This document shows, one piece after another, positions 12,670-54,844 of a stretch of DNA of 64,000 bases. A program made the position numbers and the translations under genes. Under the pieces are notes generated by a model, which saw nothing but the letters and a program-made list of their open reading frames with translations, searched no databases and was not told the origin of the DNA. The stretch comes from Pseudomaricurvus alkylphenolicus. Its GTDB lineage: Bacteria; Pseudomonadota; Gammaproteobacteria; Pseudomonadales; Cellvibrionaceae. How positions within the stretch are numbered: position 1 is the stretch's first letter; each line of letters starts with the position of its first letter. The stretch lies in contig NZ_JAAQPI010000001.1 in assembly GCF_011683955.1 (NCBI RefSeq), positions 372,001-436,000 on the forward strand, given 5' to 3'.

Positions 12670-12695
12670 TCGCGCAAATTCAGGAGCTGCTCACA

Positions 12696-35702: not shown

Positions 35703-35729
35703 GGTGGATTAGCGACAGCGTAATCCACC
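35703..35729. repeat. REP-like palindrome, copy C (flanks the RAYT)
   Basis: GGTGGATTA (35703-35711) pairs with TAATCCACC (35721-35729) around GCGACAGCG. It lies 87 bp from the 3' end of the transposase gene and matches copy B in stem and in flanking GTAGG-type bases. Confidence 0.8.
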
Positions 35730-35815
35730 AATCACTCTCCGGTTGCTCCGATATCCATCGCTACATCTCCACCCCAGTCAATTGGCAACACGCCCCCCTT
35801 TACATACCGGTGAAA

Positions 35816-36262
35816 TTATGAATAAGGCCAATCCTTCACCCGAGAAACCAACCCGTGTTTAACGGGATTGACATGCACATAATCAACATGAGCATTAAAA
35901 TCAGATTGATCCCGAATCGCATGTTCCCAAAAACGCCGCTGCCAAACTCCTGCCTCTCTTCGCCCTTTACGATTGAGCGGACATAACAGGCTTTCAGGTA
36001 AAGCCTTTGAAAACGCTGTTTTCAGCAAGCGCAATCTCAAGGAAAAATCGGAATCACCTTCTGGAAGCGTCCAAACACAGTGGAAGTGATCTGGCAAGAT
36101 AACGCAGGCGTCAATTTGAAATGGGTAACGAAGACGAACAGTTCTTGTCACGTCTCGAAGTAAATCGATGTTGTCTACCAACAGGTTTCGGCTTCTGTCT
36201 TTTATATTTACGGTGAAGAAATAGCTACCGCCGGAGACTCGAAGCCTTTTGTAATACGGCAT
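35816..36262 (-). CDS. REP-associated tyrosine transposase (RAYT, Y1/HUH)
   Basis: Protein of 148 residues of the Y1 transposase group related to IS200/IS605 TnpA. The HUH motif is His59-Phe-His61 (ILPDHFHCVW) and the catalytic Tyr is likely Tyr128 (HVDYVHVNPVKHG). The N-terminus PYYKRLRVSGGSYFFT is typical of RAYTs. It is a lone gene flanked on both sides by REP-like palindromes, the organisation expected of a REPtron, in which the RAYT nicks and mobilises single-stranded REP DNA. Full length and apparently intact. Confidence 0.92.
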   Translation of the reverse strand: MPYYKRLRVSGGSYFFTVNIKDRSRNLLVDNIDLLRDVTRTVRLRYPFQIDACVILPDHFHCVWTLPEGDSDFSLRLRLLKTAFSKALPESLLCPLNRKGRREAGVWQRRFWEHAIRDQSDFNAHVDYVHVNPVKHGLVSRVKDWPYS

Positions 36263-36298
36263 ATAACACGTCCTTTTGTTGTAGCCTGAGAGTAGTTT

Positions 36299-36343
36299 GG
36301 TGGATTACGCTTCGCTCTTGTGCCCCTTGTGGGTAAATCCACC
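36299..36343. repeat. REP-like palindrome, copy D (flanks the RAYT)
   Basis: GGTGGATT (36299-36306) pairs with AATCCACC (36336-36343); the longer centre holds a further small hairpin (CCC/GGG). It lies 37 bp upstream of the RAYT start. Its right end continues as CTACGCC, like the flank of the other copies. The rest of the gap up to 36539 has no clear feature. Confidence 0.75.
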
Positions 36344-36539
36344 CTACGCCACTCCGTAAATTGGGTTTTGAAGTCCGCTAAGTATACCTCTCTTGCCAAT
36401 CTACTAACTGATGCGAAAGCATGAATTTTATGTCGGCTCATGTCTGACAGCTGAGTTAAAGCTTAACTTCCACTTTATCCGCAACTCCACAGACGTATGC
36501 ACTACCCCCAAATACAAATTGGATCAACGATTTCAGCCC

Positions 36540-37784
36540 CTACAGACTCTGATAAAGACTCTCAACCAATAGCGAACTCAGCCCCAGCGTCGCATCATAG
36601 TGGTTACGTACAAAACCACCGGCGATGCCGGCCTCTGGATCAGCAAAACCGTAGTTACCACCACCGCCGATCATCCCCACGGCCTTGGCATTGGGACCAA
36701 AGGGCGCCGGTAAGTCGGGAAAATAAGGAGTATTCGAATGATGGCTGCCCGGTGTCCAGCGGTTCTCCAGATTGATCAGCCTATCCTTGCCGCCGGGGCC
36801 CGCCGGGGTGATGAACTCTGTGACGGTCTCGGGTTTAAAGAACGGCTTTCCGAACTGAACACCCTCATTAGCTAGAGGCGTCCAGAGGCGCGCGAGACTG
36901 CGTGCATCCGAAGTGACATTGGCGGAACCGAATTCAGCGGCCAGTGCCTTCGGCTCGCTCCAGAGCTTTAAGAAACTCAAGGAGCGCAGGTGAAGGTCTG
37001 CACCAAATAAACCGTTAAAGTGAGCGTCGTATTTCCAATCGGCGGGGCTTTCCGCATCCCCCTCGCTGTCTCCGTTTTCCAGCAGCTCCTGCATCTTGGC
37101 CAGCGCATTGGTGCATTGCTCGGTCATCGGGGCCATAGGCCAGGGTTTGATTTGTGCCAGGTCCCGCTGCTCTTCGGGAGGGGTGCCTAACCAGCAGTTC
37201 AAACTCCAGGGTCCGAACAATTCAGTTCGCAGGAACTCGCCCGCCCGCTTGCCAATAATACGGTACACCAGTTCGCTGACGAGGTTGCCATAGGTATAAC
37301 CGTGATAACCCTCTGCCGTACCCGGCTCCCAGTCCGGTGCTGCCTGGGCCAGGCGCCTGGCAATTTCGTCGTATTGATCAAGGCCGTTGCCATCCAGGTC
37401 CAGTAGCTCAGTGTAGCCAGGCAATTGCGTGGAACCCGAAGCATGGCTTAGCAGCATTCGCACGGTGGTATTTTCTTTGCCATTGCATCCATATTCAGGC
37501 CAGTACTGGCTGACCCTTTCATCCAAGTCCAGCTCGCCCCGGTCGACCAGCAACATGGCGGCAAAGGCGGTTACCGCCTTACTGGTGGATTGTATATGCA
37601 CCTTGGTATTGCAGTTCCATGGACGCTTGTGATCCGCCTGCCCTGCCCACAGATCCACAATGGTTTCCCCACCCCTGGTCGCAGCAAAGGCAGCGCCGCC
37701 TGACCCCATTAGATGGGCTTGCCTGGAAAACGTGTCTCGAACGGCCTCATAGCCGGGCTTGGTGTAACCGTGAATCTGGGTCAT
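36540..37784 (-). CDS. Class C beta-lactamase-fold serine hydrolase (MlrB-like peptidase candidate)
   Basis: Protein of 414 residues of the beta-lactamase-related serine hydrolases. The S-x-x-K motif is Ser66-Lys69 (QSTSKA) and the Y-x-N motif Tyr165-Asn167 (TYGN). No signal peptide, so probably cytoplasmic. I chose the ATG at 37784 because AAGGAAG lies just upstream and it avoids overlapping the M81 gene. Members include esterases (EstB), D-aminopeptidases and MlrB of microcystin degradation. It is the last gene of a seven-gene operon and follows an MlrC-type peptidase, so a role in cleaving linear peptides or amides is inferred from context; an esterase is the main alternative. Confidence 0.82.
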   Translation of the reverse strand: MTQIHGYTKPGYEAVRDTFSRQAHLMGSGGAAFAATRGGETIVDLWAGQADHKRPWNCNTKVHIQSTSKAVTAFAAMLLVDRGELDLDERVSQYWPEYGCNGKENTTVRMLLSHASGSTQLPGYTELLDLDGNGLDQYDEIARRLAQAAPDWEPGTAEGYHGYTYGNLVSELVYRIIGKRAGEFLRTELFGPWSLNCWLGTPPEEQRDLAQIKPWPMAPMTEQCTNALAKMQELLENGDSEGDAESPADWKYDAHFNGLFGADLHLRSLSFLKLWSEPKALAAEFGSANVTSDARSLARLWTPLANEGVQFGKPFFKPETVTEFITPAGPGGKDRLINLENRWTPGSHHSNTPYFPDLPAPFGPNAKAVGMIGGGGNYGFADPEAGIAGGFVRNHYDATLGLSSLLVESLYQSL

Positions 37785-37822
37785 TCGCACTTCCTTCACT
37801 TTCGGAATATTTGTAAGCTTAG

Positions 37823-39364
37823 TCAACTTCTGTCCATCTCCGCCACGTCGATCTCAACGTCGTCCAGGGGCCAGATAGGACGGCGGATTTTTTGCCAGTG
37901 AAACTGTTGAAAGTTAAAACTGAAAATGCCACCGGCGTCCGGGTAGAGCAGACCTCGGCTGATGGGTTGGAGATCAGCACGCATGTGATTGAACGCTTTA
38001 CTCACAATCACATTCATCTCTTCAGCAATAACGCCAAACAGTTTTAGTTGTTCGCGATCATGGATCTGGCTTGGAAAACTATTGACGATAACATCAACGC
38101 CTTCGATGTTGAGCAGAGCACTTTTACCCAAGTCCCCGGCTTGCCCCTGAAGATAAGGTCCGCTGTGAACAAATTTGCCATCGGACAGGGCTCTCACGGC
38201 TGCGATTCCCGACACCGGTCCACCGCCAAAACGGGGATCGCACTTGCCACCCAGAGCAACCTCTATCTCAGCACCGACTCCGGCTGCGTGAGCCTGCTCG
38301 ACGGCAGCTTTGTCAAATAAGGGACCAAAGACAGCCCCGGCAACGCGGCGTGCAATCAGCGCCTGCAGCATTGCGGTACTGTCACCATAGCCACCGGCAT
38401 AGGGGCAATCACTGAAATCGCCTAGTAGAAACGGTCGCGGCTGAGCGGCCGTCGCTTCGACAGCGTCGAGGGCTTCGTCAATGGACACGATATCAATGGT
38501 TAACACGTCCCGCGTCCGCCAGATCTCTTCGCCCAGCTCGTTCAGGTAGGCATCCGCCCGATCCGATTCGCCGTCCATGACCAGAACGGCACTGGGGCCC
38601 GTCCAGGTCTGGTCCGCATGGGGAAAGGAGGCCATAAAACTCGCGTCCAGCAGCTGTGGATCGTCAGCCTGCAGTTGCCGCACCCGCTCCAATAGCGACC
38701 GCATTGGAGATGCCTCGGCCAGGGTGCGTCCATGATCAAGACCCGTGATCATGGGCGGGTGGATGGAGCAGCAATGTGGCTTGATTTCCCCCTTGAGGGT
38801 ACGCGCCAATAAGGTTGCCGATCTCAGTGACGCGGCTCGTATGTCTGTGTGGGGCGTCGTATGAAACCCGCAAATGATGTCACAATCGCGCACGAACTGT
38901 GGCGACAGGTTTGCATGGGGATCGAGATTAACGGCCAGGGGAACATCCCGCCCGAGACGCTGCCTGATTCGCCGTACAAACTCGCCTTCCGGATCATCCA
39001 GGTGCTCACAGGCCATGCCGCCGTGCAGCGGCAGCAACAACCCATCAAAAGGCCCTTCCGTCAACAGCTGTTTTTCAATGCGCGCCCACAGACTTTCAAA
39101 GGCATGCTCACTGACCGGGCCGGCTGGCCAGGCGAATGCACAAACGCCTACCACCAGCTCCCAACCCTCAACCTCCGCAACGTCGAGATAGCCGGCAAAG
39201 TAATGATCACTGTCTCGAAATTGCTGCAGATCACCGTGCTCTGGCACAAAGAAGAGTCCCTTCTCGGTAAACGCCTCCAGAGTGGTGGGGTATTTATTAA
39301 AGCCATGGGTTTCGGTGGCAATGCCACAGACAAAAATACGCGGCTTGAAATCAGTGGAGCTCAT
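37823..39364 (-). CDS. M81-family metallopeptidase (MlrC/microcystinase C-like)
   Basis: Protein of 513 residues with the two-domain M81 layout. Likely zinc residues are Glu18 (ATETHGFN), Asp148/His150 (NLDPHANLS) and a His in GFHTTPHTD (168-172); LPLHGGM at 112-117 and the C-terminal DFSDCPYAGGYGDST block are also typical. MlrC of sphingomonads cleaves the linear tetrapeptide from microcystin and releases Adda; other members occur outside that pathway. The start overlaps the end of the amidohydrolase gene by 14 bp, so the two are translationally coupled. 38 bp separate its stop from the beta-lactamase-fold gene. The substrate is unknown. Confidence 0.87.
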   Translation of the reverse strand: MSSTDFKPRIFVCGIATETHGFNKYPTTLEAFTEKGLFFVPEHGDLQQFRDSDHYFAGYLDVAEVEGWELVVGVCAFAWPAGPVSEHAFESLWARIEKQLLTEGPFDGLLLPLHGGMACEHLDDPEGEFVRRIRQRLGRDVPLAVNLDPHANLSPQFVRDCDIICGFHTTPHTDIRAASLRSATLLARTLKGEIKPHCCSIHPPMITGLDHGRTLAEASPMRSLLERVRQLQADDPQLLDASFMASFPHADQTWTGPSAVLVMDGESDRADAYLNELGEEIWRTRDVLTIDIVSIDEALDAVEATAAQPRPFLLGDFSDCPYAGGYGDSTAMLQALIARRVAGAVFGPLFDKAAVEQAHAAGVGAEIEVALGGKCDPRFGGGPVSGIAAVRALSDGKFVHSGPYLQGQAGDLGKSALLNIEGVDVIVNSFPSQIHDREQLKLFGVIAEEMNVIVSKAFNHMRADLQPISRGLLYPDAGGIFSFNFQQFHWQKIRRPIWPLDDVEIDVAEMDRS

Positions 39365-40589
39365 TGCGAATCAGGCTCCCACCTTTCATGATCAGCGGCA
39401 TCTGTTCCGGTCGCTGGAAGACCGACAGATCTTTGAGCGGATTGCCATCCAGCACGATCATGTCAGCGTAGGCACCGGCACTGATTTCACCCACTGCGCC
39501 CTTCATCTGCACAATCTCCGCATTGATGGAAGTTGCTGAGCGAAGGACATCGATGGCCGGTTGAACTTCAGCGCGATATTCAAACTCCTTACTCTGTAGA
39601 GGATGATACTGCGGACCAAACAAATCGGTTCCCATACCCATTTTGGCCCCGGCTCGGTGCATGTTTTCGACGGACGTCAGCACCTGATCCCACAGCGGTT
39701 TGATCTTTTCCAGACTCTCCGGGTACATGCCAAGCTCAGGGCCGTAATCCAGGATCTGGCGCATGACCGCCAGCGTGGGTACGGCGAACGTCTTGTCTGT
39801 CGCCGCTAACATTTCAGCCGTATCGGGAAGAATCTCGGTGGCGTGATCAATGGAGCGTACGCCGTTCGCAATACTGCGCTTTGCGCCTACATCTGTGTGG
39901 CAATGTACAACCACATATTTACGACGGGTCTCGCATTCGTAAACCGCCGCCCGAATCTCTTCATCGGTAAATTGAGGCATCCAGATCGGGTCTGTGGGGG
40001 ATGCCACACCGCCGGAAATAAACATCTTGATATGATCCGCACCTTTACGCAGTTCCTCACGAACCAGCTTGCGCACATCATCGACACCATCCACCACCTG
40101 GCAGATGGTGCCCGAATAAGCGCAACCGCAGGACATCTCTTCTTCATCGTGACGGCGCATATCGCCGTGACCACCGGTTTGCGATAGTGCCTGTCCCCCG
40201 TAGAGAAAACGCGGGCCATTGATCAGTCCCGCCTCGGTAGCCAGGCGCAGTCCTACATCACCACCGCCCGGATCCCTGACCGTGGTAAAACCCCGTTGCA
40301 GTGCGCCTTCAAGCAATTTGATGGAATGGCTGACCTTAAGCGGCTTGGGCATGCTGTCGAGCTTGGCCATGTTAAAACTGATGGAATAAGCGTGAAAATG
40401 CAGATCCAATAGACCGGGCATAAGAAATTTGCCCTTCAGATCAAGCACCTCGGCGTTGTCGATGTTGACGTTTTTATCGGTGACTTCACGAATACGTTCG
40501 CCCTCGACAACAACACTGCCACCTTCGATCAGCTCTTCATTAACACCGTCAAAAATAACGGCGTTCTTAAATATTTTTGGTTGGCTCAT
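39351..40589 (-). CDS. Metal-dependent amidohydrolase (imidazolonepropionase/prolidase-like)
   Basis: Protein of 412 residues, TIM-barrel amidohydrolase. Metal ligands: His64/His66 (DLHFHAY), the bridging Lys in HIKMFISGG, His in VVVHCHTD, His in RSIDHATEI and Asp in GMGTDLFG. Short beta domain at both ends (MPGLLDLHF; GAYADMIVLDGNPLKDL). The group includes Xaa-Arg and Xaa-Pro dipeptidases as well as other amide hydrolases. No signal peptide. GGGAG RBS. In this operon a dipeptidase or amidase acting on an internalised peptide is a reasonable inference. Confidence 0.85.
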   Translation of the reverse strand: MSQPKIFKNAVIFDGVNEELIEGGSVVVEGERIREVTDKNVNIDNAEVLDLKGKFLMPGLLDLHFHAYSISFNMAKLDSMPKPLKVSHSIKLLEGALQRGFTTVRDPGGGDVGLRLATEAGLINGPRFLYGGQALSQTGGHGDMRRHDEEEMSCGCAYSGTICQVVDGVDDVRKLVREELRKGADHIKMFISGGVASPTDPIWMPQFTDEEIRAAVYECETRRKYVVVHCHTDVGAKRSIANGVRSIDHATEILPDTAEMLAATDKTFAVPTLAVMRQILDYGPELGMYPESLEKIKPLWDQVLTSVENMHRAGAKMGMGTDLFGPQYHPLQSKEFEYRAEVQPAIDVLRSATSINAEIVQMKGAVGEISAGAYADMIVLDGNPLKDLSVFQRPEQMPLIMKGGSLIRNELH

Positions 40590-40620
40590 GCCAATCTCCC
40601 AGCTTAATGCTCTCTAATAT

Positions 40621-41535
40621 CTATAAACTCGCTGTTTCATCGTTTTCCAGCCGGGCAGTCAAACCCTCTGCATAACCCAATCCGGTGCCATAGAGTTTTC
40701 GAATACCGGTGGCGATAATATGGGGTATCACTGAAGCGTGATCTTCACCATCAAACACGTGCGTGGTGATATCGATACGTGGCAACTTCAAATCCTTGAG
40801 GCGTTCCAGCATCGGCAGGCCAATACCGGCCTGCGCAGATGCGGGTTCGTCCAGTTCAGCACCACCAACCGCGTGATACACTTTCCGGGCGACCCTATTG
40901 CTTGATGATTTTTGATTCTCCACAAAGGCTTTTTCCACCGCTTCGATGTCATCCCACCACTCGGTGCCAAAGGTGCCAATGAGGTAGCGCCGCAACAGCT
41001 GACTGTCTTCAAACAATGCGTAGGCGGCAAAAGCGCCGGCCGCTGAGTGACCAAACAGACCTATATCGTCAACCGCGACGGCATAACGGTCGGACAGCAC
41101 GGGCATCAGGTTTTTCTCAATAAAGCCCAGGAAGTCGGCTGCCCCCCCAAAGGTATCTTCAAAGTCCCAGCCCAGTTGATCAACCGCCTCTTTGTAAAGC
41201 TGAAACACTGGCTCAATATGTGGACCTCTTTGTGGACATCCCGGGGTTAAATATCGAAGCCGTTTCAGGCCACGCATGGCATTGCCTTCGTCCGGTGGTG
41301 TATCAATACCCACCACGATGATTTCTTCGATTCCGCCCAGCCCGCTTTGAGCGCGAACCGTCTCGAAGGCGGTTGCAAAGGTCAGACTGCCATCCAGAAC
41401 CAGCAACAGAGGGTAGTTCTTGCCCGGCTTTGGATAGCCGCCCGGCAGGCCCACCGTGATTTCGAACGTCATGTCGAAAGCACTCTGCAACTGAAAGCAT
41501 TCGCAGTCCGAAAGGGTTTTGTTGTAAATCCTCAT
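40621..41535 (-). CDS. Alpha/beta-hydrolase esterase (esterase D/Fes-like)
   Basis: Protein of 304 residues of the putative-esterase group (PF00756-like). The nucleophile is Ser164 in LFGHSAAGAF, and the C-terminal His is in DGEDHASVIPH. DGSLTFATAFE and the VVGIDTP block form the oxyanion-side strands. The gene starts within the stop of the acyl-CoA ligase (ATGA overlap), so translation is coupled. No signal peptide. It may hydrolyse an ester or a depsipeptide bond of the imported compound, or an acyl-CoA-derived ester; family enzymes also open cyclic siderophore esters. Confidence 0.82.
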   Translation of the reverse strand: MRIYNKTLSDCECFQLQSAFDMTFEITVGLPGGYPKPGKNYPLLLVLDGSLTFATAFETVRAQSGLGGIEEIIVVGIDTPPDEGNAMRGLKRLRYLTPGCPQRGPHIEPVFQLYKEAVDQLGWDFEDTFGGAADFLGFIEKNLMPVLSDRYAVAVDDIGLFGHSAAGAFAAYALFEDSQLLRRYLIGTFGTEWWDDIEAVEKAFVENQKSSSNRVARKVYHAVGGAELDEPASAQAGIGLPMLERLKDLKLPRIDITTHVFDGEDHASVIPHIIATGIRKLYGTGLGYAEGLTARLENDETASL

Positions 41536-43061
41536 TTGCTGCTTCTCATCGTTTTTAGTTGTGCTTTATCGATCTTGCCAATGGGCAGCATTGGCAGCTC
41601 CCGACGGATAAAAAACTGTTTGGGCACCTTGTAGTTCGCCAAGTGTTGTTTACAAAACTGTTTAATATCAGCCTCCTCCAGGCGGGCGCCTGCCTCGAGC
41701 AGGATATAGGCCACGCCCTTTTCCGTATAAACGGGATCAGGCACACCAAACACCGCGCTCATGGCGACGGCCGGATGCTGCTCCAGCGTTAACTCGATTT
41801 CCCTGGGGTAGATGTTATAGCCACCGGACTTATACATCTCCTTGATCCTGCCGGCGATGCGCCAGTAGCCACTGTCCGGATCGACTTCCGCGCAATCCCC
41901 GGTTTTGAGCCAGCCGTCTTCGGTAAACGCCTCCCGAGTTGCCTCCGGTTGGTTCAAATAGCCGGACATAACCGTCTTGGAACGCACCTGTATTTCATTG
42001 GAATCGGGATCAAGACGCACCTGGTAGCCGGCGGGCGGAATACCAACAAAGCTCGCCAGCGACTCATCACAGACATCATCCGGCATGTAAAGCGCTTCTC
42101 CACCCAGTTCGGTACTGCCATAGCTGGTATACAGTTGCGGCGTTATCTCACGCAACTTGCGAATCATATCCTGTGGGCAGGGTGATCCGCTCCAGACGAG
42201 CGATTGCACGCAGGCCATTCCCATCTCTCGGTATTGCGGGCATTCGAGTATTTTTTGGTACATCATGGGAATTTGATGCATAAAAGTCACATTCAGTTCG
42301 TTGACCACCTTGACGACATCCTCCGCGTCGAATCGAGGCATCAACACACTGGCGCCGCCGGCAACGATCGCCTGGCAACTCAATTGCACCGCCCCTCCCA
42401 CATGGTTTATGGGCAGATTATTGAGAATTCGCAGAGGCTCCGCCCACCAGTGCCGGCATTGGGTGCGGGCACTGGTGACCACACTGGCGTGGCTGAGCAG
42501 TGCGCCTTTCGGACGGCCTGTGCTGCCCGATGTATAAACCACCAGGCAGGGGTCTTCTGCGCGGACGCTGGCACATTCCCTGGAAAAATCTGTTTCATCA
42601 ACTTCAGCGCCAAGGGCAAGAAAATCACTGAAATCAGGTTCCCCAATCGTATGCAGCGACGCAATGCTGGAGCATTGCTGGAACAGATATCGCAGATCCT
42701 TACGGAAATCACGTCCCTCAAATTGTTCCATCCCCAGCAACACTTTTGGGCGCGAGTCCTGCAGCAGATAACTCAACTCGTCTCGGGTTTGACGCGGATT
42801 CAAGCCCTGCCAGATTGCCCCCAGGCGCGCCGTCGCCATAAATAGGATCAAGTATTCAGCCTGTGGTACCGACAACAGGGCCACCCGCTCACCCCGCCTG
42901 ACGCCGCAGGTATAAAGAGCACGCGCACAGCGATCAACAGCCCGCTCGAATTGCAGCCAGTTGTAGCTCCGCTTCTGCTCGACCAACGCATCGGCGTTCG
43001 GCGTCGCAGCCGCATAGTGCCTCGGGTAATCGCTGATCAGCGCCAACTCGGGGACTCTCAT
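41532..43061 (-). CDS. AMP-forming acyl-CoA ligase
   Basis: Adenylate-forming enzyme of 509 residues. P-loop YTSGSTGRPKG near 176-186, adenine-binding YGSTELGG, hinge IAGRIKEMYKSGGYNIYP and the C-terminal catalytic Lys in LPIGKID. It activates a carboxylate as acyl-AMP and then acyl-CoA. The ATG at 43061 is chosen over the preceding TTG. It lies 4 bp after the MaoC stop and overlaps the esterase start. In this operon it probably activates a fatty- or aryl-type side chain released from the imported compound for beta-oxidation-like breakdown. Confidence 0.87.
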   Translation of the reverse strand: MRVPELALISDYPRHYAAATPNADALVEQKRSYNWLQFERAVDRCARALYTCGVRRGERVALLSVPQAEYLILFMATARLGAIWQGLNPRQTRDELSYLLQDSRPKVLLGMEQFEGRDFRKDLRYLFQQCSSIASLHTIGEPDFSDFLALGAEVDETDFSRECASVRAEDPCLVVYTSGSTGRPKGALLSHASVVTSARTQCRHWWAEPLRILNNLPINHVGGAVQLSCQAIVAGGASVLMPRFDAEDVVKVVNELNVTFMHQIPMMYQKILECPQYREMGMACVQSLVWSGSPCPQDMIRKLREITPQLYTSYGSTELGGEALYMPDDVCDESLASFVGIPPAGYQVRLDPDSNEIQVRSKTVMSGYLNQPEATREAFTEDGWLKTGDCAEVDPDSGYWRIAGRIKEMYKSGGYNIYPREIELTLEQHPAVAMSAVFGVPDPVYTEKGVAYILLEAGARLEEADIKQFCKQHLANYKVPKQFFIRRELPMLPIGKIDKAQLKTMRSSK

Positions 43062-43065
43062 CAAT

Positions 43066-43554
43066 TCAGGCCTCGCGATCTTTCAGCCACATAATCAAGT
43101 ATTCAGCCACCAACGCCGGTTTTTCCTGCCCCTCGATTTCGACCACCTTTTCGAACGTATATAGAGTTTTGTTGTCGCCCTTGCTTTCAATGTTCTTCAG
43201 GGTGATTTTCCCGCGAATACGAGAGTCGACCAGTACCGGTGCGATCAGGCGCATGCGATTAAATCCGTAGCTGGCAGGATAGCCATAGCTTACAGGGTCG
43301 CCATCGAGCTGATAACGAAACACCTCATAGAGCATTGACGTCGTCAGGGAAGTCGTCAGCCAGCCAAACGCTATGGTCTTACCCCAAGGGCTGTGAACGG
43401 ATGCCCATTGAGGATTGATGTGGTGTGGATCGGGATCGTTGATCGCCTCTCCAAAGGCGTTAATTCGTTCCTGGGTAATGGTTGTCCAGCTGGAATAAAA
43501 CGTCTCACCAACGTGTTGGTGGCAATTTTCCAGAGTCATAAAGTGTTCGGTCAT
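43066..43554 (-). CDS. MaoC-like hot-dog dehydratase/hydratase
   Basis: Single hot-dog protein of 162 residues. The hydratase-2 motif appears as NDPDPHHINPQWA, with the catalytic Asp and His conserved, followed by KTIAFGWLTTSL. It hydrates or dehydrates an enoyl-/3-hydroxyacyl-CoA. The ATG at 43554 has GGAA upstream; residues before it in the frame look non-coding. It sits between the TBDR and the acyl-CoA ligase of the same operon, consistent with side-chain beta-oxidation. Confidence 0.85.
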   Translation of the reverse strand: MTEHFMTLENCHQHVGETFYSSWTTITQERINAFGEAINDPDPHHINPQWASVHSPWGKTIAFGWLTTSLTTSMLYEVFRYQLDGDPVSYGYPASYGFNRMRLIAPVLVDSRIRGKITLKNIESKGDNKTLYTFEKVVEIEGQEKPALVAEYLIMWLKDREA

Positions 43555-43590
43555 TGCAGATTTCCAGAGTCTTGGTTGAGCAGGCTGGTG

Positions 43591-43614
43591 GCGAGGCACC
43601 TGGGAGTGCCCCGC
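43591..43614 (-). other. Hairpin between TBDR and MaoC genes
   Basis: GCGAGGCAC and GTGCCCCGC form a 9-bp stem with one mismatch around CTGGGA. No T-tract follows, so transcription probably continues; it may protect or process the mRNA. Confidence 0.3.
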
Positions 43615-43632
43615 TCAAGCGGTGTTTGACGT

Positions 43633-45867
43633 TCAGAAACGCAGACTGGCTTCGACACCGAGGGTTCGTGGACGCATGCGACTGGCCGGCACGCCGGCTA
43701 TTGCGGTCTGCGCAAACAGACTGATGCGGCCATCTTCGTCGGTGAGGTTTTCGCCCGTCAGATACAGCGACCAGTGTTCCGCTTCTACCCCGAGGCGTGC
43801 ATTAAGCACTGCAAAGGAGTCCGACTCCGTACTGAACCCGACCGTGTAATCCGGTCGTGAATCGGTGTATTGATAGGCCGTATAGAAACGGCCGTTGAGC
43901 CCGGTATCTGCCAATGGCCATTGGTAGGCGGCCGATACCGACATTGTGGCCTCGGGCACCTGGGTGACGGTATCCCCGTCAGCAATATTGGCCAGGGGCA
44001 GATCGTCTCCGTATTCTGTACTGTTGAAGTTGGCTGCGATCTGCAGAGTCAAACCGGGAACCCCGCGGTAGAGAACGCCGATGTCGACGCCAACGGCGTC
44101 CGCTTCGCCCACATTCTCAGCGTAGGAAATGGGCAGGCCACTGTTCGGATCCACCGTGCCCAACAGGGTGATGATGTCATCCCACTGCAGGTAATACAGC
44201 GCCGCTTCCAGAGTCAGGGCATCATCCATAAAGCTCAATTTGGTACCCAGCTCGTAGCTGATCAGATCTTCCGACTCGGAAAATTCAGGAGCGGCGATAC
44301 CTGCGGCCACTGCCGACAGCAGAGAGATACCTTGCTGCGCCACGCCACTGCGAAATCCCTGAGCCACGTTCAGGTAATAGAGACTGTCGCCGTCGGGCGC
44401 GTAGGCCAGGTTCACGCGACCAGTCACCTTGTCAAGGTCCTGTGAACGTTTGGCGTCAAAACCCAGCGCATTCAGCCCGGCAATGGTGAGCGCCCCCAGG
44501 TCTTCTTCCTCCCGCTCATCTTCAAAGTAACGGCTGCCCAGTGTCAGCGTCCATTCGTCACTCAGTTCGTAGTGCAATTCTCCGAACACCGCCCATTGCG
44601 TGGATCGTTTCTCCTGATCGGCGACGACGGTTAACACCGGGTCGGGCAGCCCCGCCAGCAAAGTTCCGGCAATGACCTGCTGCTCTTGCCTGGCGTCCAT
44701 AAAGAACACACCGGCCGTCCAGGACAAACTGCCTTCGCCAGTGTAAGCCAGACGCAGCTCCTGATTCAGCGTGCGGTTTTCAATCGGCAGCAATACTGGA
44801 GCGCCCAACACATTTTGATCCAGCTGCTGTTTGTTCTCGATCAGCGATGTGGTGCTGTAGAGGGAGACCTGCTCGAAATCGTATTCCAGCACCAGATTGT
44901 ATAAATCGAATTCTATACGGTTCGTCAGATCATCGGCTGTAACGGGCCTCACCCCGGCCGGAATCGGCAATGGCAACGCCGCAGGATCGAACTCGATAAA
45001 GACCGGCGAAAACTCATAATCTTTATCGGCATAGGGAACCGCGCTTGCCACCTCACTGTGCCAGGCCGTCAGTTTTATGCTCAGGTTGTCTGTCGGCGTA
45101 AACAACAACTTGGCTCGATAGCTTTCGTCTTCGCTGTCGTTGTAGTCGTTTTCGCCCGTCAGGGGTAAGTCGATAAAGCCAGCCTGATCCACACGAGAGG
45201 CAACAACACGCGCAGACAGCACGTCCTCTATCAATGGCAGGTTTATTGCGGCCTGTGCCTTCCAGCTGTCGCCATGCCCACTGGTCGATGAAATACCGCC
45301 ATTGGCCTTGAATTCAAACTCGTTGTGCTCTGGACTACGCGTCAGCACACGCACCGTACCCCCCTGGGAGCTGGCCCCGTAGAGCGTACCCTGCGGGCCG
45401 CGCAGCACCTCAATGCGCTCAAGATCATAGGGGTTCATATCGGGTACAAACTGTTGTCCCACTTGGGTGTAGGGTAAATCATCCATGTAATAACCCACTG
45501 TCGCGTCGCCAAACAACGAACTCACACCGCGAATTTGAACCGTATTGGAACCCCCGAACAGTTCAACGCTGGATACTCCTGGGTTGCCGGCAATCGCGTC
45601 GGCAACGGAAACCACACCCTGGTCTTCCAATTGCTCCCCGGTCATGGCACTGATGGAGAAAGAGGTATCCATAATGCTCTTGGCTCCAATCTTTTCGGCC
45701 GTGACTATAATTTCCTCTAGCATGAGCCTGGCGACATCTTCCGCCACGGCATGGCCACAAGGTATGGCCAGAAAAGCGGCCGCCAAGGCTGTCTTCTTGC
45801 AAAATCCAAGTTTTGTACCAGTAATCCAGCTGTCTGCACTAGCCTTTCTAGAAAATGATGTCTTCAT
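43633..45867 (-). CDS. TonB-dependent receptor heading the peptide/acyl-compound operon
   Basis: Outer-membrane receptor of about 744 residues. Signal peptide with hydrophobic TALAAAFLAIPCGHAVA, then LEEIIVTAEK (TonB box region), plug with SVELFGGSNTVQIRGVSSLFGDATVGYYMDDLPY, the RIEVLRGPQGTLYGASSQGGTVRVLT block and a barrel ending in RTLGVEASLRF. The plug and GPQGTLYG block resemble FecA/CirA-like receptors used for small natural products. I chose the ATG at 45867; an in-frame ATG at 45903 adds 12 residues. Divergent from a TetR gene with three operator-like sites between, so repression and induction by the imported compound are likely. Confidence 0.9.
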   Translation of the reverse strand: MKTSFSRKASADSWITGTKLGFCKKTALAAAFLAIPCGHAVAEDVARLMLEEIIVTAEKIGAKSIMDTSFSISAMTGEQLEDQGVVSVADAIAGNPGVSSVELFGGSNTVQIRGVSSLFGDATVGYYMDDLPYTQVGQQFVPDMNPYDLERIEVLRGPQGTLYGASSQGGTVRVLTRSPEHNEFEFKANGGISSTSGHGDSWKAQAAINLPLIEDVLSARVVASRVDQAGFIDLPLTGENDYNDSEDESYRAKLLFTPTDNLSIKLTAWHSEVASAVPYADKDYEFSPVFIEFDPAALPLPIPAGVRPVTADDLTNRIEFDLYNLVLEYDFEQVSLYSTTSLIENKQQLDQNVLGAPVLLPIENRTLNQELRLAYTGEGSLSWTAGVFFMDARQEQQVIAGTLLAGLPDPVLTVVADQEKRSTQWAVFGELHYELSDEWTLTLGSRYFEDEREEEDLGALTIAGLNALGFDAKRSQDLDKVTGRVNLAYAPDGDSLYYLNVAQGFRSGVAQQGISLLSAVAAGIAAPEFSESEDLISYELGTKLSFMDDALTLEAALYYLQWDDIITLLGTVDPNSGLPISYAENVGEADAVGVDIGVLYRGVPGLTLQIAANFNSTEYGDDLPLANIADGDTVTQVPEATMSVSAAYQWPLADTGLNGRFYTAYQYTDSRPDYTVGFSTESDSFAVLNARLGVEAEHWSLYLTGENLTDEDGRISLFAQTAIAGVPASRMRPRTLGVEASLRF

Positions 45868-45944
45868 CAGTTCGCTCTCGTTATTGGATATCTCTTTCAG
45901 CATTTATAACCAGCTGCAATTAAGTCAGGCTTTTTAACTACCAA

Positions 45945-46025
45945 GGTGCACAAGCATGCACCCCACACCCCTATGGTGCACAAGCATGCACCTGATGTCA
46001 ACAAAAAGGTGCTCGCCCGTGCACC
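45945..46025. promoter_or_regulatory. Three 18-bp operator-like inverted repeats between TBDR and TetR genes
   Basis: GGTGCACAAGCATGCACC occurs twice, identically, at 45945-45962 and 45975-45992; a third site GGTGC-N8-GCACC lies at 46008-46025. Each is a GGTGC/GCACC inverted repeat of 18 bp. Spacing of 30 and 33 bp puts them close to three helical turns apart. They lie in the 219-bp divergent gap and are the natural binding sites of the TetR protein. Confidence 0.8.
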
Positions 46026-46086
46026 CCTCGCTGTTATTGGCTACAATGGCCGCTGGATTGGCATCAGCAAGTATAGGAGAGTGGCA

Positions 46087-46752
46087 ATGCCCACCAACTC
46101 AGGCGGCGGCAAGCAGCCGCAGCATGAAGAACATGCGACGACGGAAAATAGCGGGCGGCAAAAGCTGATCAACGCCGCCATGAAGCTGTTTGGCGAAAAA
46201 GGCCATGATAAGACCAGCCTCGATGAGTTGGCGGCAGAAGCGGGTGTCTCCAAGGGGCTGGTACACAAGTACTTTGGCGGTAAATCCGGGCTGCGCGATG
46301 CCACCGACCACTATGTCGCCGGTCGCCGGCGGGCTATGTTCGAAACACCGCTACACACCATACGCAATGGACACATCGGGGACGCCTTTGGACAGAACAA
46401 TCCGGAGTTCGCCGAAGAGGAACAGCTTACCGCCAACTATATGCGCGGCCGACTATGGGAGCCTCCCAGCCAGGCCACCAGGGACTACCTGAAAAACGTT
46501 TTTGACATGTATCGGGAAGAATTGGATCACCTTCATCAGCAAGGCTTGCTGCGCGATGGTGTTGAGGATTTCGATGCTTATGCGATGTCGCTGGCGTACC
46601 TTGGCTTGGGGCGGCTACTGTTTCATCCCTTGGGGCTGGAAATATTGAATGTCGATAGTAAAGAGAAACGTGTTGCCTTTGACGATATCCAGCAATCGAT
46701 TTTGGATCATTTGCTGCTACGAGCAGACTCAGGCAAAAGCTCGATTAATTGA
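46087..46752 (+). CDS. TetR-family regulator of the divergent operon
   Basis: Protein of 221 residues. N-terminal TetR HTH near residues 20-65 (KLINAAMKLFGEKGHDKTSLDELAAEAGVSKGLVHKYFGGKSGL); the C-terminal ligand domain is not assignable. The ATG at 46087 has AGGAGAG at ideal distance; the longer frame would run through the operator sites and is rejected. A TACAAT at 46042-46047 could be its -10, with the third operator over the -35 region, which suits autorepression. Confidence 0.9.
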   Translation: MPTNSGGGKQPQHEEHATTENSGRQKLINAAMKLFGEKGHDKTSLDELAAEAGVSKGLVHKYFGGKSGLRDATDHYVAGRRRAMFETPLHTIRNGHIGDAFGQNNPEFAEEEQLTANYMRGRLWEPPSQATRDYLKNVFDMYREELDHLHQQGLLRDGVEDFDAYAMSLAYLGLGRLLFHPLGLEILNVDSKEKRVAFDDIQQSILDHLLLRADSGKSSIN

Positions 46753-46845: not shown

Positions 46846-48165
46846 TCACATTCGCAAAAAAAAGCGCATCAAAGAAAATAGTTGAGGCTGATCGAACACG
46901 GGTTGTGCCCCTTCGGGCGGCATAAAATTCATCATCAAGGGCACTTGTGTGCCTGTGTGCTCCTCGTAAGCGGCGTTATTGGTGGCGTAGCTAACCCCCA
47001 TCAGACCACCCTCCGGGGTTTTGATGACTGCCAAACGACCAATACTGAAGGCATTTTCACTCTTTGGTAACATACTCGGGTAAGGCACTAATTGCGCGGC
47101 CTGGCCGTGATCCGCTGTGACCAGTACCAGAGTATTGGTATCTCCAGCTGCAAATTCGAGGGCGACTCCAAGAGCCTCATCCAACTGTTCCAGCTCACCG
47201 ATGCTTCCGCAGGGCTGTCGGCGGTGGGCCTGTTTGTCAATGGATGCCGACTCCACCATCAGGAAAAATCCGCGCTCGTTGTTTCTATCCAGATGCGCAA
47301 TGGCCTTCTCGGTCATTGTCTTCAGGCTGGGCACATTCCTGGCTAAAGGATTGGGGATGCAGCTAAACGCGGGAGGCGCCACAATGGATTGACCGTCAAA
47401 GTCGAGAAATTCCGCTTTGTGGTTGTTCTCACCCCTCAGTTGAACGGGCAGATCCCCCTCTGAAAAAAGCCCCAGGACCTTTCCGTTGTAGGGCAGATGC
47501 TCCAATGCCTCTTTTGATTCCACAAGGTGAAAGCCTTGGCTTTTAAGTATTGAAGCATCAAAATGTTGTCTGCCACCACCCAGCAGAATATCGATGGACG
47601 ATGTGGAGATCTGATGGGCAATCGAGCCTTTGCCACCCCGCTCTAAACGGTCCACAGTACACTTTTCCTTCCGCATATTGATTGCACCTTGGCAACCTCG
47701 ATTCACAGAATGAGCTAAAAAAGACGCGGGAGTGGCGTCGGTGACAGAAGCCGTTGTAACCGCACCGGTACGAACTCCATTTTCGATCGCGATTTCAGTA
47801 ATGGACTTCAACGCCAGATTGGATTGCGCAGCTGTTGCAATGCGACCTCGGCTGGTCACCACACCGGTTGCCATCGCCGTGGCGCTGTTGGCGGAATCGG
47901 CGACATAGACGGGCTTTTCCGGATTTGACTCGTCAACCGTAAGTACTTGAACCGCGCTCCTGATCGGCAACCTGTCGATGGCAAGACGCCCGCCGGCACC
48001 CCTTAAGTAATTGCGTGCGATGGTGATCTGTTGATCATCCATACCATCACCAATAATCAGAATGACGTTTTTGGGATTTTCCTGAGCATGAAGCCTGAGC
48101 GGCAAACTCAGAATGGCAAACAACAGAACGACGCCCAAAAGCCGTTTCTCTACAGAAAGCAACAT
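46846..48165 (-). CDS. Alkaline phosphatase (PhoA superfamily), exported
   Basis: Protein of 439 residues with a signal peptide (LLGVVLLFAILSLPLRLHA-QE). The fold is shown by ILIIGDGM (metal Asp), VADSANSATAMATG (catalytic Ser), TDATPASFLAHS, MVESASID, TADHG and EEHTGTQVP with the metal His. It hydrolyses phosphomonoesters in the periplasm. The ATG at 48165 has AAAGGAAG upstream. It lies 80 bp after a TBDR on the same strand. Phosphate scavenging or dephosphorylation of a TBDR substrate are both possible; no Pho box was recognised. Confidence 0.9.
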   Translation of the reverse strand: MLLSVEKRLLGVVLLFAILSLPLRLHAQENPKNVILIIGDGMDDQQITIARNYLRGAGGRLAIDRLPIRSAVQVLTVDESNPEKPVYVADSANSATAMATGVVTSRGRIATAAQSNLALKSITEIAIENGVRTGAVTTASVTDATPASFLAHSVNRGCQGAINMRKEKCTVDRLERGGKGSIAHQISTSSIDILLGGGRQHFDASILKSQGFHLVESKEALEHLPYNGKVLGLFSEGDLPVQLRGENNHKAEFLDFDGQSIVAPPAFSCIPNPLARNVPSLKTMTEKAIAHLDRNNERGFFLMVESASIDKQAHRRQPCGSIGELEQLDEALGVALEFAAGDTNTLVLVTADHGQAAQLVPYPSMLPKSENAFSIGRLAVIKTPEGGLMGVSYATNNAAYEEHTGTQVPLMMNFMPPEGAQPVFDQPQLFSLMRFFLRM

Positions 48166-48189
48166 CTGTCTTCCTTTTTCGAATAGGTT

Positions 48190-48221
48190 CACCAGGATTG
48201 CTGCCTGAGGCCATCCTGGTG
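48190..48221 (-). other. Hairpin between TBDR and alkaline phosphatase genes
   Basis: CACCAGGAT and ATCCTGGTG (9 bp, perfect) enclose a second small stem GCC/GGC. No T-tract follows in the minus direction, so read-through into the phosphatase gene is possible. Confidence 0.4.
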
Positions 48222-48245
48222 AAATCGGTGAGAATGGCGGTAGAT

Positions 48246-50525
48246 CTACTGCCAGTTATATCTCAGGTTAATGCCGTATGTTCTCGGTGCACCGTACCAG
48301 GTCCAACTGGAACCGGGCTCCCCATTTAACGTCTCAAACCGGTTTACGACGTACTCTTCATCGGCCAGGTTTTTGCCCCATAGCGCAATCTGCCAGTTAT
48401 CTTCCGGGTCCGACAAGGCAAGGCGACCATCAACCACCCAGTAGGAGTCTGCGGCGAATGCCGGGGTGTTATAAATGTCCTTAAAGGTGTCATCCACAAA
48501 GTTAAAGTTTGTTGACGCCGTCAGGTTGAGTCCGTTGGCAAGCTCCCAGGCGTACTGTATACGCCCGTTGAATGTCAGCTCGGGTGCGTCGGGTGATTGA
48601 TTACCTTCGTTGGCTCGGCGTTCTGCAGGATTTACTGAGTTCCAGGTGACCACTTCGCTGTCGATCAGAGACACTCCTGCTCTGATATCCCAGCCTTCGC
48701 CAGGAAGCCAGAGAATATCGAATTCCGCTCCGGTCATTTCAACATCGCCGGCATTGGTGCGAATCGATGACGGCAGTGGCACGCCGTCAACTATCGTTGT
48801 GACCGTCGCCTCTGCCTGCATATCCTGGTAGTCGTAGAAGAATACTGCACCGTTAAACTGCAGAGAGTTTTCAAATAACGATGTCTTGAATCCCAGTTCA
48901 TAGGCCCATAATGTCTCTTCTTCGAATGGCGTCACGTCGGATGAGTCAAAGACGGTGGAACCATCGAATCCACCACTTTTGAATCCCTTACTGATAGAGC
49001 CATAGATCAGCACATCATTAGCAGGCGTCCAGTCCAGCGCAATTTTTCCCGATATATCTTGCGTATCGTAGTCCTCATCGGCTTCGGCGAAGGCGCCACC
49101 GCCTGGAAAAAAGATGGTAGCTCCGTAGGGGTCCAAATCGTAGGTGCCACCCCGATAGTCTTTCTCTTCTTCCGTATAGCGCAGGCCAAGCGTCAGCTTC
49201 CAGGCTTCCGAGAATTGCCATTCAGTATGGCCAAATACGGCCAACGATTCTCCGCCTTGCACGTATTCAGTATTGATATCGGTTAGTAACCAGTCCGCCG
49301 TAATGGCATTCTTTTGGAAGTCAATTTCCTCGTCTGAATAAAACACACCGGCAATCCAGTGCAAATCGCCGTCACCGTTGGAAGTCAACCGAAACTCCTG
49401 CGTAAACTGATACATATCCTCGTACCAATCCCACTCAAGCAACCTGAGCGGATGGCCATCACCGTCCACAACATTTCTGTCCAGTTCCTCGTAACCCGTA
49501 ATGGAAGAAAACGTCACACTTTCACCGTGTGCGTCGATACGCAGCTGCCCTCCCAGAGCCTCCGAATCGACGCGGGTATCGGAGTTATCATAGCGAGTGA
49601 AAGGATCTGAATCGGTGTCTATAAAACGGCTACTCTCTCCGGAAACCACACCGCCATCAAATGAACCAACGGGGCCGTCTACTTGAAGAATGTAGCCATT
49701 GGAATCGTCTTTGCTGCCGTGTATCGAGGCGAAGATGTCCAGATTATCATGGGGCTCTATTGTAAATGACGCTCGCCAGGCCACAGCATCGGTACTGCTG
49801 GCTTCGTCATCCGGATTCTTGAGCGGCAGTGGTTCAATTTTTCCCGGTGCCCCCGTGTATCCCTCAAATCCGACAGTACCCCGATTTTCGACATAGCCAT
49901 CACTTTGATCGACCATCAATGCCACACGACCGTTGATCGATTCCGTCAACTGCCCGCCAAACGCAAACTCGCCACTGAAGCTGTTGTAATTCCCGTAGCT
50001 GACATCAACACTCGCGTCAAATTCTTCTGTTGGTTTCTTGGTGATAAAGTTCACCGCACCCGCGGTGGTGTTGCGACCATAGAGCGTGCCTTGGGGGCCT
50101 TTTAATACCTCCACACGCTCCACATCGAACAACTGAAAAGACAAATAGGCCGACGACCCCAGATACACCTCATCGACGTGTACTGCCGTAGACGGGTTGT
50201 TGTTACTGTGGTAATCGTTTAATCCAACGCCGCGAATGGTGATGACCGGGTTAACCTTCCCCAAGGTGTTCTTAATATCAACTCCGGGTGTTTGGGCAGC
50301 AATATCGACGGGCTGTCGAATACCCATATCCTTCAGATCCTCGCCGCCAAAAGCGGTTATGGCAACACCGATATCCTGTGAGCTCTGTTCCCTTTTCTGG
50401 GCCGTGACGATTATCTCTTCGATTGTCGCAGACAATGAGGTTACGCTGAACGACGACAGCATCACTGTAGTCGCGAATAGGGCGGAATATCTGTGATTGT
50501 CTGTTGTAATTATTTTGGTTTTCAT
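48246..50525 (-). CDS. TonB-dependent receptor (FecA/CirA-like)
   Basis: Protein of 759 residues from the ATG at 50525 (GAGAGA upstream); the longer frame to 50732 is non-coding in look. Signal peptide ending near SLSA, then IEEIIVTAQKREQSSQDIGVAITAFG. Plug blocks are ITIRGVGLNDYHSNNNPSTAVHVDEVYLG and RVEVLKGPQGTLYGRNTTAGAVNFITKKP. The barrel ends in the aromatic strand YGINLRYNW. This QKREQS/GRNTTAGAVNF type is abundant in marine gammaproteobacteria that use steroids, lipids or polymers; the substrate is not deducible. It is similar to the receptor at 50626-52818 but is separated from it by a terminator. Confidence 0.9.
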   Translation of the reverse strand: MKTKIITTDNHRYSALFATTVMLSSFSVTSLSATIEEIIVTAQKREQSSQDIGVAITAFGGEDLKDMGIRQPVDIAAQTPGVDIKNTLGKVNPVITIRGVGLNDYHSNNNPSTAVHVDEVYLGSSAYLSFQLFDVERVEVLKGPQGTLYGRNTTAGAVNFITKKPTEEFDASVDVSYGNYNSFSGEFAFGGQLTESINGRVALMVDQSDGYVENRGTVGFEGYTGAPGKIEPLPLKNPDDEASSTDAVAWRASFTIEPHDNLDIFASIHGSKDDSNGYILQVDGPVGSFDGGVVSGESSRFIDTDSDPFTRYDNSDTRVDSEALGGQLRIDAHGESVTFSSITGYEELDRNVVDGDGHPLRLLEWDWYEDMYQFTQEFRLTSNGDGDLHWIAGVFYSDEEIDFQKNAITADWLLTDINTEYVQGGESLAVFGHTEWQFSEAWKLTLGLRYTEEEKDYRGGTYDLDPYGATIFFPGGGAFAEADEDYDTQDISGKIALDWTPANDVLIYGSISKGFKSGGFDGSTVFDSSDVTPFEEETLWAYELGFKTSLFENSLQFNGAVFFYDYQDMQAEATVTTIVDGVPLPSSIRTNAGDVEMTGAEFDILWLPGEGWDIRAGVSLIDSEVVTWNSVNPAERRANEGNQSPDAPELTFNGRIQYAWELANGLNLTASTNFNFVDDTFKDIYNTPAFAADSYWVVDGRLALSDPEDNWQIALWGKNLADEEYVVNRFETLNGEPGSSWTWYGAPRTYGINLRYNWQ

Positions 50526-50580
50526 AGGATTCTCTCTCAATATGATCTTTTTCAAAAACACACTTTGGGATTGTCGGAAG

Positions 50581-50605
50581 AAAAAATGCGCAGGTTTCCC
50601 TGCGC
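50581..50605 (-). terminator. Rho-independent terminator after the 50626-52818 receptor gene
   Basis: Stem GCGCAGG/CCTGCGC (50588-50594/50599-50605) with a 4-nt loop and six A on the plus strand at 50581-50586, giving a T-tract on the minus strand 20 bp after the stop codon. Confidence 0.85.
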
Positions 50606-50625
50606 CAAGTCTACGACAAGAAAAA

Positions 50626-52818: not shown

Positions 52819-52864
52819 ATTGCTCTCCTGTAACTTGTTGTTATTGATAGACGGGCGAATAAGA

Positions 52865-54823: not shown

Positions 54824-54844
54824 GGTCACCTCTGAATTAAACTG

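Follow-up and report, generated by a model that had tools for sequence, protein, structure and literature searches.

A TonB-dependent receptor-led operon of Pseudomaricurvus alkylphenolicus that joins four hydrolases to acyl-CoA chemistry: a candidate locus for the use of acyl conjugates

Operons led by a TonB-dependent receptor (TBDR) are well known for sugars, iron, and vitamins. The operon described here, with its divergent TetR-family regulator, lies at positions 36540 to 46752 of a 64,000-nucleotide stretch of the Pseudomaricurvus alkylphenolicus genome (the window) and joins four hydrolases to acyl-coenzyme A (CoA) chemistry. Its gene content, read together with that of paralogous loci in the same genome, suggests that an acyl-amino-acid or acyl-peptide conjugate is taken up, deconjugated, and oxidised in a CoA-dependent way, a function in which we place about as much belief as doubt. 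Several described systems resemble the operon in part. The cited sections on bsd I, the cluster of Caenibius tardaugens for bile-salt side chains, which is described as similar to that of Sphingobium sp. Chol11, report, as does the window, a TetR regulator, an amidohydrolase, an acyl-CoA ligase, a MaoC-like hydratase, an esterase-like alpha/beta hydrolase, and a transport gene; the amidohydrolase and esterase without secretion signals are a further likeness (PMC12882949). The mlr cluster of Sphingomonadaceae (MlrA-D) shares with the window an M81 superfamily enzyme with the same zinc ligands (PMC12474180; PMC9982164). In MlrC, which cleaves the Adda-Glu amide (PMC12474180), these ligands are E39, D167, H169, and H191, and residues that contact the substrate have also been named (PMC9982164). 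The cog1228 prolidases Sgx9260b/c (3mkv, 3n2c) and M38 aminoacylases such as PmAcy have in common with the window amidohydrolase the His pairs, the Lys, the Asp, and the oxyanion-hole His, and in these enzymes a Tyr is described as binding the alpha-carboxylate of the substrate (PMC10781821; PMC10699109).

The operon and its receptor subfamily

Seven open reading frames (ORFs) run on the minus strand from 45903 down to 36540 and encode, in this order, a TBDR, a MaoC-like hydratase, a CoA ligase, a PF00756 esterase, an amidohydrolase, an M81 protein, and a beta-lactamase-fold hydrolase. The gaps between them are 33, 1, -4, 31, -14, and -4 nt. Since gaps of -14 to +33 nt have the geometry of a single transcription unit, the seven genes look like one unit and are predicted to be co-expressed. 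An earlier interpretation made from the letters and ORFs alone (the sequence-only reading) had described seven close-packed minus-strand genes of these families, and both the packing and all seven families are borne out, the latter by Pfam and NCBIfam domain matches.

The receptor, encoded by the first gene of the operon (43633-45903, minus strand; PF00593, PF07715), belongs to a subfamily with at least eight members in this genome. Searches with it return six paralogues (41-75% identity) and then a seventh; as the TBDR searches scored 7, 2, and 8 candidates per genome, eight is a minimum and any absence from other genomes is provisional. With the E-value limits applied, no member turns up in the 144 relatives, in the 368 other genomes of the class, or in 127 further genomes of the phylum (overlapping sets). 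Conservation of the gene order, which the sequence-only reading had put forward as a check, is likewise not seen elsewhere at these limits, in a comparison whose scope is strong homologues and not the co-location of weaker ones in relatives. A first look at the whole 8.88 Mb genome gives 329 candidate TBDR places, as against 36-130 in the five genomes of the same genus that were searched.

All eight subfamily receptors found have a same-strand CoA ligase within 1.7 kb. At the first seven loci, including the window, the receptor and ligase are accompanied by at least one ester or amide hydrolase. At the eighth locus (C18), the genes directly downstream of the receptor encode an alpha/beta hydrolase and a CoA ligase, in keeping with a prediction written before the locus was read. 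The background, counted for the ligase only, consists of 37 stretches of 20 kb over three contigs, away from the eight loci, with 34 receptor ORFs. A same-strand ligase is present for 4 of these at a limit of 3 kb, for 5 at 5 kb, and for 6 at 8 kb. Among background receptors with full 2-kb flanks, a ligase is found for 4 of 23, against 8 of 8 in the subfamily (Fisher 6e-5, descriptive only). BLAST matches to the window receptor were obtained for 31 of 35 background receptors at no more than 32% identity, which marks the subfamily as distinct. In a tree of 26 ligases that includes those of the first seven loci and not the eighth, the subfamily ligases require six changes, at least five of them forced; five of the seven pair with or stand nearer to outside ligases or stand alone, and the other two form a 74% pair. 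The forced changes thus show that the pairing of receptor and ligase was made several times, by repeated recruitment of ligases.

Genome searches with the esterase and the amidohydrolase lead to a sister operon on contig C68, in which genes for a TetR regulator, a TBDR, a class III aminotransferase, a CoA ligase, an SCP2-type thiolase, an S9A prolyl oligopeptidase, an S9C enzyme resembling acyl-peptide hydrolase and DPP5, an esterase, and an amidohydrolase follow one another in one direction. Identity to the window proteins is 92% for the amidohydrolase, 73-75% for the TBDR, 69% for the esterase, 30% for TetR, and 26% for the CoA ligase, and a scan of the C68 locus gives no match to the M81, beta-lactamase-fold, or MaoC protein. 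The core common to both loci consists of receptor, esterase, and amidohydrolase; the other genes differ as if they had been swapped to suit different cargo. Nonsynonymous divergence (dN) between the loci is 0.049 for the amidohydrolase, 0.21 for the esterase, and 0.20 for the TBDR, with similar, saturated synonymous divergence (1.81, 1.98, and 2.07). Given so low a dN at similar synonymous divergence, the amidohydrolase most probably does the same job on a substrate common to both loci while the rest changed; the other reading is that it is a generally slow-evolving enzyme.

Peptidases are found at other sister loci as well, as M14 carboxypeptidase and M24 enzymes, and the two loci closest to the window, C68 and C22, both carry peptidases. 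Among the genes scanned, C1, C18, C11:294k, and C11:304k (the last on the downstream side of the receptor) have solely esterase-type or alpha/beta hydrolases. SCP2-type thiolases occur in the C68 and C1 loci and a BAAT-family protein in the C22 locus. A gene opposite the C11:256k locus, cut by the end of the stretch and without a Pfam match, resembles an AraC regulator by eye only.

Hydrolases and acyl-CoA enzymes

The M81 protein (37823-39364, minus strand) is a zinc metallohydrolase of the MlrC superfamily: it has both the DUF1485 (PF07364, 2.4e-80) and MlrC_C (PF07171, 4.5e-47) domains and keeps all four zinc ligands, as E18, D148, H150, and H172, which are invariant in 56 of 56 alignment rows. 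Its matches in the PDB include MlrC (7ylq) and 3iuu. Beyond family membership, the resemblance to MlrC is slight. Identity is 28%, the NCBIfam MlrC model scores 184.8 bits against a cut-off of 999, and the MlrC substrate residues N41, W59, F67, E70, F96, D341, S392, Q468, S485, and R492 correspond to H, F, Q, D, F, D, G, H, A, and F, so that only F96 and D341 are kept and 8 of 10 are changed. At the position of E70, the Asp of the window protein is Glu in its seven close relatives. These relatives, 70-73% identical proteins (70-72% in the tree set) from six Caldilineaceae metagenome-assembled genomes (MAGs) and one Rhodospirillaceae MAG, join the window protein in a tree of 56 M81 proteins with support of 100/100, followed by a Rhizobium plasmid protein (99/98). 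Three other M81 genes of the P. alkylphenolicus genome share a separate clade (100/100) with MlrC. The close link to MlrC drawn in the sequence-only reading is thus not upheld, and orthology with MlrC is rejected. The tree test attached to that reading, in which the protein was not to fall far from peptidase members, has an ambiguous outcome, as the protein lies outside the MlrC clade and MlrC, the one M81 member for which an activity was taken from the literature, lies in the neighbouring one.

The M81 genes of the genome on the MlrC side are located at C6:69712-72659 and C11:161154-162542, two of them forming a tandem next to a TetR-like gene. In four of the Caldilineaceae MAGs, a further, more distantly related M81 gene (about 30% identical to that of the window) lies 7-8 kb from the close one. 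In the DNA fetched around the seven close relatives, where two of the seven contigs span only about 12 kb, no other gene of the operon is found, and a search of their genomes for the amidohydrolase at E<=1e-30 gives matches only in the Rhodospirillaceae MAG (two; 38% and 28%). Elsewhere the M81 protein has any match in 4 of 144 other genomes among relatives (at most 32% identical) and a match at E<=1e-50 in 46 of 397 other genomes of the phylum (at most 36% identical). Two plasmid homologues, of 15 listed from 493 matching records, were opened, and both lie beside oligopeptide ABC transporters.

The cog1228-type amidohydrolase (39351-40589, minus strand; PF01979) is related to 3mkv and 3feq/3n2c, matches 3mkv at 6.5e-104 (44% identity), and is 47% identical to its best plasmid homologue. 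The motifs for the metal ligands, for the Lys that is carboxylated in cog1228 prolidases, and for the oxyanion-hole His are kept, and the carboxylate-binding Tyr is replaced by His231, HAY in 3mkv becoming HCH, as it also is in the 92% paralogue. With this replacement and an NCBIfam Xaa-Pro dipeptidase score of 217 bits against a cut-off of 500, the protein is not assigned to the cog1228 prolidases or Xaa-Pro dipeptidases proper. Plasmid contexts were opened for 9 of 12 listed matches (319 records matched), and 7 are annotated. In three of these seven, homologues that keep the Tyr (42-44%) have a 4-hydroxyproline epimerase or proline racemase gene adjacent or one gene off, two of the three being Burkholderia plasmids with the same local arrangement. 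A third amidohydrolase of the genome (C28:16461-17234), 62% identical to that of the window along 178 aa, consists of a single 263-aa open frame without the central part of the protein and is probably a decayed copy.

The remaining two hydrolases are esterase-like. The PF00756 serine esterase (40621-41535, minus strand; motif G-H-S-A-A-G) matches BES and siderophore-esterase or IroE-like structures in the PDB; it has no match at E<=1e-25 in 368 other genomes of the class, and the other esterase ranked first by E-value in the set of relatives shares 31% identity with it. The beta-lactamase-fold protein (36540-37826, minus strand; PF00144, 5.8e-51) has the motifs S80-T-S-K83 (S-x-x-K) and Y179-G-N (Y-x-N) and no signal peptide by eye. 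Its best solved chains are the fenoxaprop-p-ethyl hydrolase 7y3z and carboxylesterases, and it presumably belongs under the labels family VIII and S12. No MlrB model is among its NCBIfam matches, and a search with MlrC for plasmids that might supply an MlrB sequence found none close, the best plasmid match of MlrC being 41.8%.

The AMP-forming acyl-CoA ligase (41532-43064, minus strand; PF00501, 2e-64) has feruloyl-CoA and fatty-acyl-CoA synthetases as its best PDB matches. The CasG steroid-24-oyl-CoA synthetase model gives it 231 against a cut-off of 750, and another model scores better. For the MaoC-like (hot-dog) hydratase (43066-43599, minus strand; PF01575), the GTG start is probably too early and the real start an internal ATG; with the query shortened, its best PDB match is Rv0130 (2c2i).

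Regulator, operator-like sites, and surroundings

The TetR-family regulator (46087-46752, plus strand; PF00440, 6e-15) is divergent from the operon, and three 18-bp operator-like sites stand between the two, at 45945-45962, 45975-45992, and 46008-46025, with spacings of 30 and 33 bp. Sites 1 and 2 are identical (GGTGCACAAGCATGCACC); site 3 (GGTGCTCGCCCGTGCACC) is an imperfect, 72% copy in which the GGTGC..GCACC arms are kept. Control by a TetR protein and three operator-like sites in the promoter gap were already named in the sequence-only reading. The pattern GGTGCA-N6-TGCACC occurs in two places in the 8.88 Mb genome, both in this gap, and the pattern read backwards in none, with about 0.7 expected from base composition. 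Regulator and palindromes therefore look like a locus-private pair, as predicted from their sequences. The mechanical GTG start of the TetR gene (45946) would place the operators within the gene; the true start is likely the ATG at 46087, which is preceded by AGGAGA as ribosome-binding site and gives a 221-aa protein. A scan of the locus for sigma-70 promoters and terminators gave no signal above chance and was not used. Upstream of the C68 receptor (L118:3209-3251) stand two 18-bp palindromes with a distance of 25 bp between them, ATATACAATTGTATATAT and a copy at 89% identity, which differ from the operators of the window.

Beyond the TetR gene, 46846-54829 encodes an alkaline phosphatase-family protein, two further TBDRs, and an FAD-dependent oxidoreductase-like protein. 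On the other side of the operon, a 148-aa ORF (35816-36262) resembles a REP-associated transposase by eye, without a Pfam match, and lies between two inverted copies of a roughly 33-bp element (within 36281-36360; 35711-35742). A similar inverted pair is found at 12109-12713 of another stretch (L215).

Possible cargoes and comparison with described systems

It is proposed that the TetR regulator would bind the three sites between itself and the operon until the substrate or a product releases it. From what is known of TBDRs, the receptor may import a conjugate of the acyl-amino-acid or acyl-peptide type that exceeds the size limit of porins, and the PF00756 esterase, the amidohydrolase, the M81 protein, and the beta-lactamase-fold esterase would cut its ester and amide bonds inside the cell. 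The freed carboxylic acid would be activated by the CoA ligase and pass into beta-oxidation, where the MaoC hydratase would act. That a receptor, a hydrolase, and a CoA ligase regularly occur together argues for a cargo that yields a carboxylic acid after hydrolysis, and the amidohydrolase, the M81 protein, and the S9, M14, and M24 enzymes of the sister loci point to amide bonds beside amino acids, which favours an acyl-amino-acid or acyl-peptide conjugate. Import, hydrolysis, and CoA-dependent oxidation had been suggested in the sequence-only reading and are retained as the best inference through the S9 peptidases of C68 and the eight receptor-ligase loci, with the tie to MlrC given up. Several observations weigh against this function. 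A domain scan finds neither an acyl-CoA dehydrogenase nor a thiolase among the operon genes, so that the oxidation is incomplete as encoded, nor an inner-membrane transporter gene. Among background receptors with full 5-kb flanks, 3 of 8 have a ligase (Fisher 0.013), and the Fisher tests are descriptive because the eight receptors are paralogues. With its Tyr absent, the amidohydrolase may be no simple prolidase or aminoacylase, and a proline-metabolism neighbour is not seen in four of the seven annotated amidohydrolase contexts, one of which has an Xaa-Pro dipeptidase gene about 4 kb off.

A broad-specificity catabolic operon for esters or xenobiotics, whose peptidase-like enzymes would have no role beyond that of esterases or detoxifying hydrolases, is unlikely. 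Two of the four window hydrolases are of esterase type, and C1, C18, C11:294k, and the downstream side of C11:304k have none but esterase-type or alpha/beta hydrolases among the genes scanned, as such an operon would have it; against it, no other protein of the shared core is as conserved as the amidohydrolase, and peptidases are carried by the two sister loci closest to the window. The main rival, a cargo of conjugated steroid or similar polycyclic acid of the bile-salt type, we likewise hold to be improbable. Here the amidohydrolase or M81 protein would remove an amino acid, the esterases would remove O-acyl groups, and the CoA ligase and MaoC hydratase would start side-chain degradation. 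It draws on the union of TetR, amidohydrolase, CoA ligase, MaoC, and esterase in bsd I, whose first locus, EGO55_16295, is placed among induced TBDR/ABC/MFS transport genes, the cited sections not stating its type (PMC12882949), and on a secreted metal-dependent amidohydrolase of another subgroup, reported to deconjugate taurine bile salts (PMC13081902). The SCP2-type thiolases at C68 and C1 and the BAAT-family protein at C22 agree with it as well, but the Scd4AB and monooxygenase of bsd I are absent from the window operon, CasG is not the best model of the ligase and stays below its cut-off, and the prolyl oligopeptidase, acyl-peptide hydrolase, and M14 carboxypeptidase of the sister loci fit peptides better.

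Use of a xenosiderophore is a still more remote prospect. A ferric depsipeptide or lactone siderophore would be imported and opened by the hydrolases to free its iron, which accords with the siderophore esterases and IroE-like hydrolases among the solved relatives of the esterase and with TonB-siderophor as the best NCBIfam model of the receptor, albeit below its cut-off (153 vs 223.5 bits). The gap holds no Fur-like box (best score 11/19, matched by 186 of 500 shuffles), the operon has no ferric reductase or inner-membrane iron transporter, and the CoA ligase and MaoC hydratase, with a ligase beside 8 of 8 subfamily receptors found, indicate carbon use; siderophore use is less likely on account of the missing Fur-like box and the carbon-catabolic gene set. 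Least probable of all is the degradation of microcystin, nodularin, or their linear fragments by an mlrB-mlrC counterpart in another lineage. The adjacent M81 and beta-lactamase folds, the conserved zinc ligands, and the amide cleaved by MlrC speak for it. On the opposite side stand the separate M81 clade with its changed substrate residues, the nearest M81 relatives in Caldilineaceae with other neighbours, and the three MlrC-clade M81 genes of the genome, which lie outside the operon; in addition, none of the 20 window ORFs scanned belongs to an MlrA- or MlrD-like family, for which the first half of the window and the rest of the genome were not searched.

If the cargo is an acyl-amino-acid or acyl-peptide conjugate, the function might extend to the whole subfamily, though we consider this wider picture doubtful. 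The genome would then hold at least eight paralogous utilisation loci built on one TBDR subfamily with recruited CoA ligases and swappable hydrolases, an acylated-natural-product counterpart of polysaccharide utilisation loci, in which the window and C68 would serve acylated peptides and C68 one with an alpha-methyl-beta-amino fatty acid. Such a fatty acid, of a type that occurs in Adda and other cyanobacterial or marine lipopeptides, is a speculation that fits the aminotransferase, CoA ligase, and SCP2-type thiolase of C68, which might convert a beta-amino-acyl-CoA to a 3-oxo-acyl-CoA for thiolysis. Should the subfamily serve acyl conjugates, its receptors would mark loci that degrade natural products such as lipopeptides or conjugated bile acids, a side of carbon cycling that is little explored, and would offer enzymes with which to remove toxins or drug conjugates. 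The locus-private operators and the 92% conserved amidohydrolase are direct handles for finding the substrate.

Compared with the described systems, the operon is likened to bsd I by gene content and not by sequence. The genes of bsd I form more than one transcription unit and include those for an acyl-CoA dehydrogenase and a monooxygenase, and the cited sections mention no M81 or beta-lactamase-fold gene for the cluster (PMC12882949); with no acyl-CoA dehydrogenase in the operon and a CasG score of 231 against 750, the operon is not counted as a bsd I member. It shares with the mlr cluster a beta-lactamase-fold partner, if MlrB has the fold given in the sequence-only reading, and differs from it in an M81 protein of another clade with changed substrate residues and in having a TBDR, CoA ligase, MaoC hydratase, esterase, and amidohydrolase in place of MlrA and MlrD. 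Unlike Sgx9260b/c and PmAcy, the amidohydrolase and its 92% paralogue have His for the alpha-carboxylate Tyr. Plasmid contexts of the TBDR were opened for 4 of 12 listed matches (970 records matched). Among the matches listed, the nearest plasmid receptors (30-31%), on pHR1a and pKN1 of Novosphingobium and Sphingobium, stand in TBDR-led peptide loci, with DPP IV-like, DUF885, aminopeptidase P, and leucyl aminopeptidase genes or with dipeptide epimerase, dipeptidase, and serine hydrolase genes as neighbours; they differ from the window in that no CoA ligase is annotated next to the receptor. The pTomRC1a receptor locus has CoA ligases and no annotated peptidase, and that of p4 has neither. In searches of the open-licence PMC literature, this type of operon was not recognised as described, the bile-salt cluster aside, nor was a description found of the combination, of the modular core shared with a peptidase-bearing sister, or of the eight-locus subfamily with recruited ligases. 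Every gene family in the operon is known, and so are TBDR-led catabolic operons as a kind.

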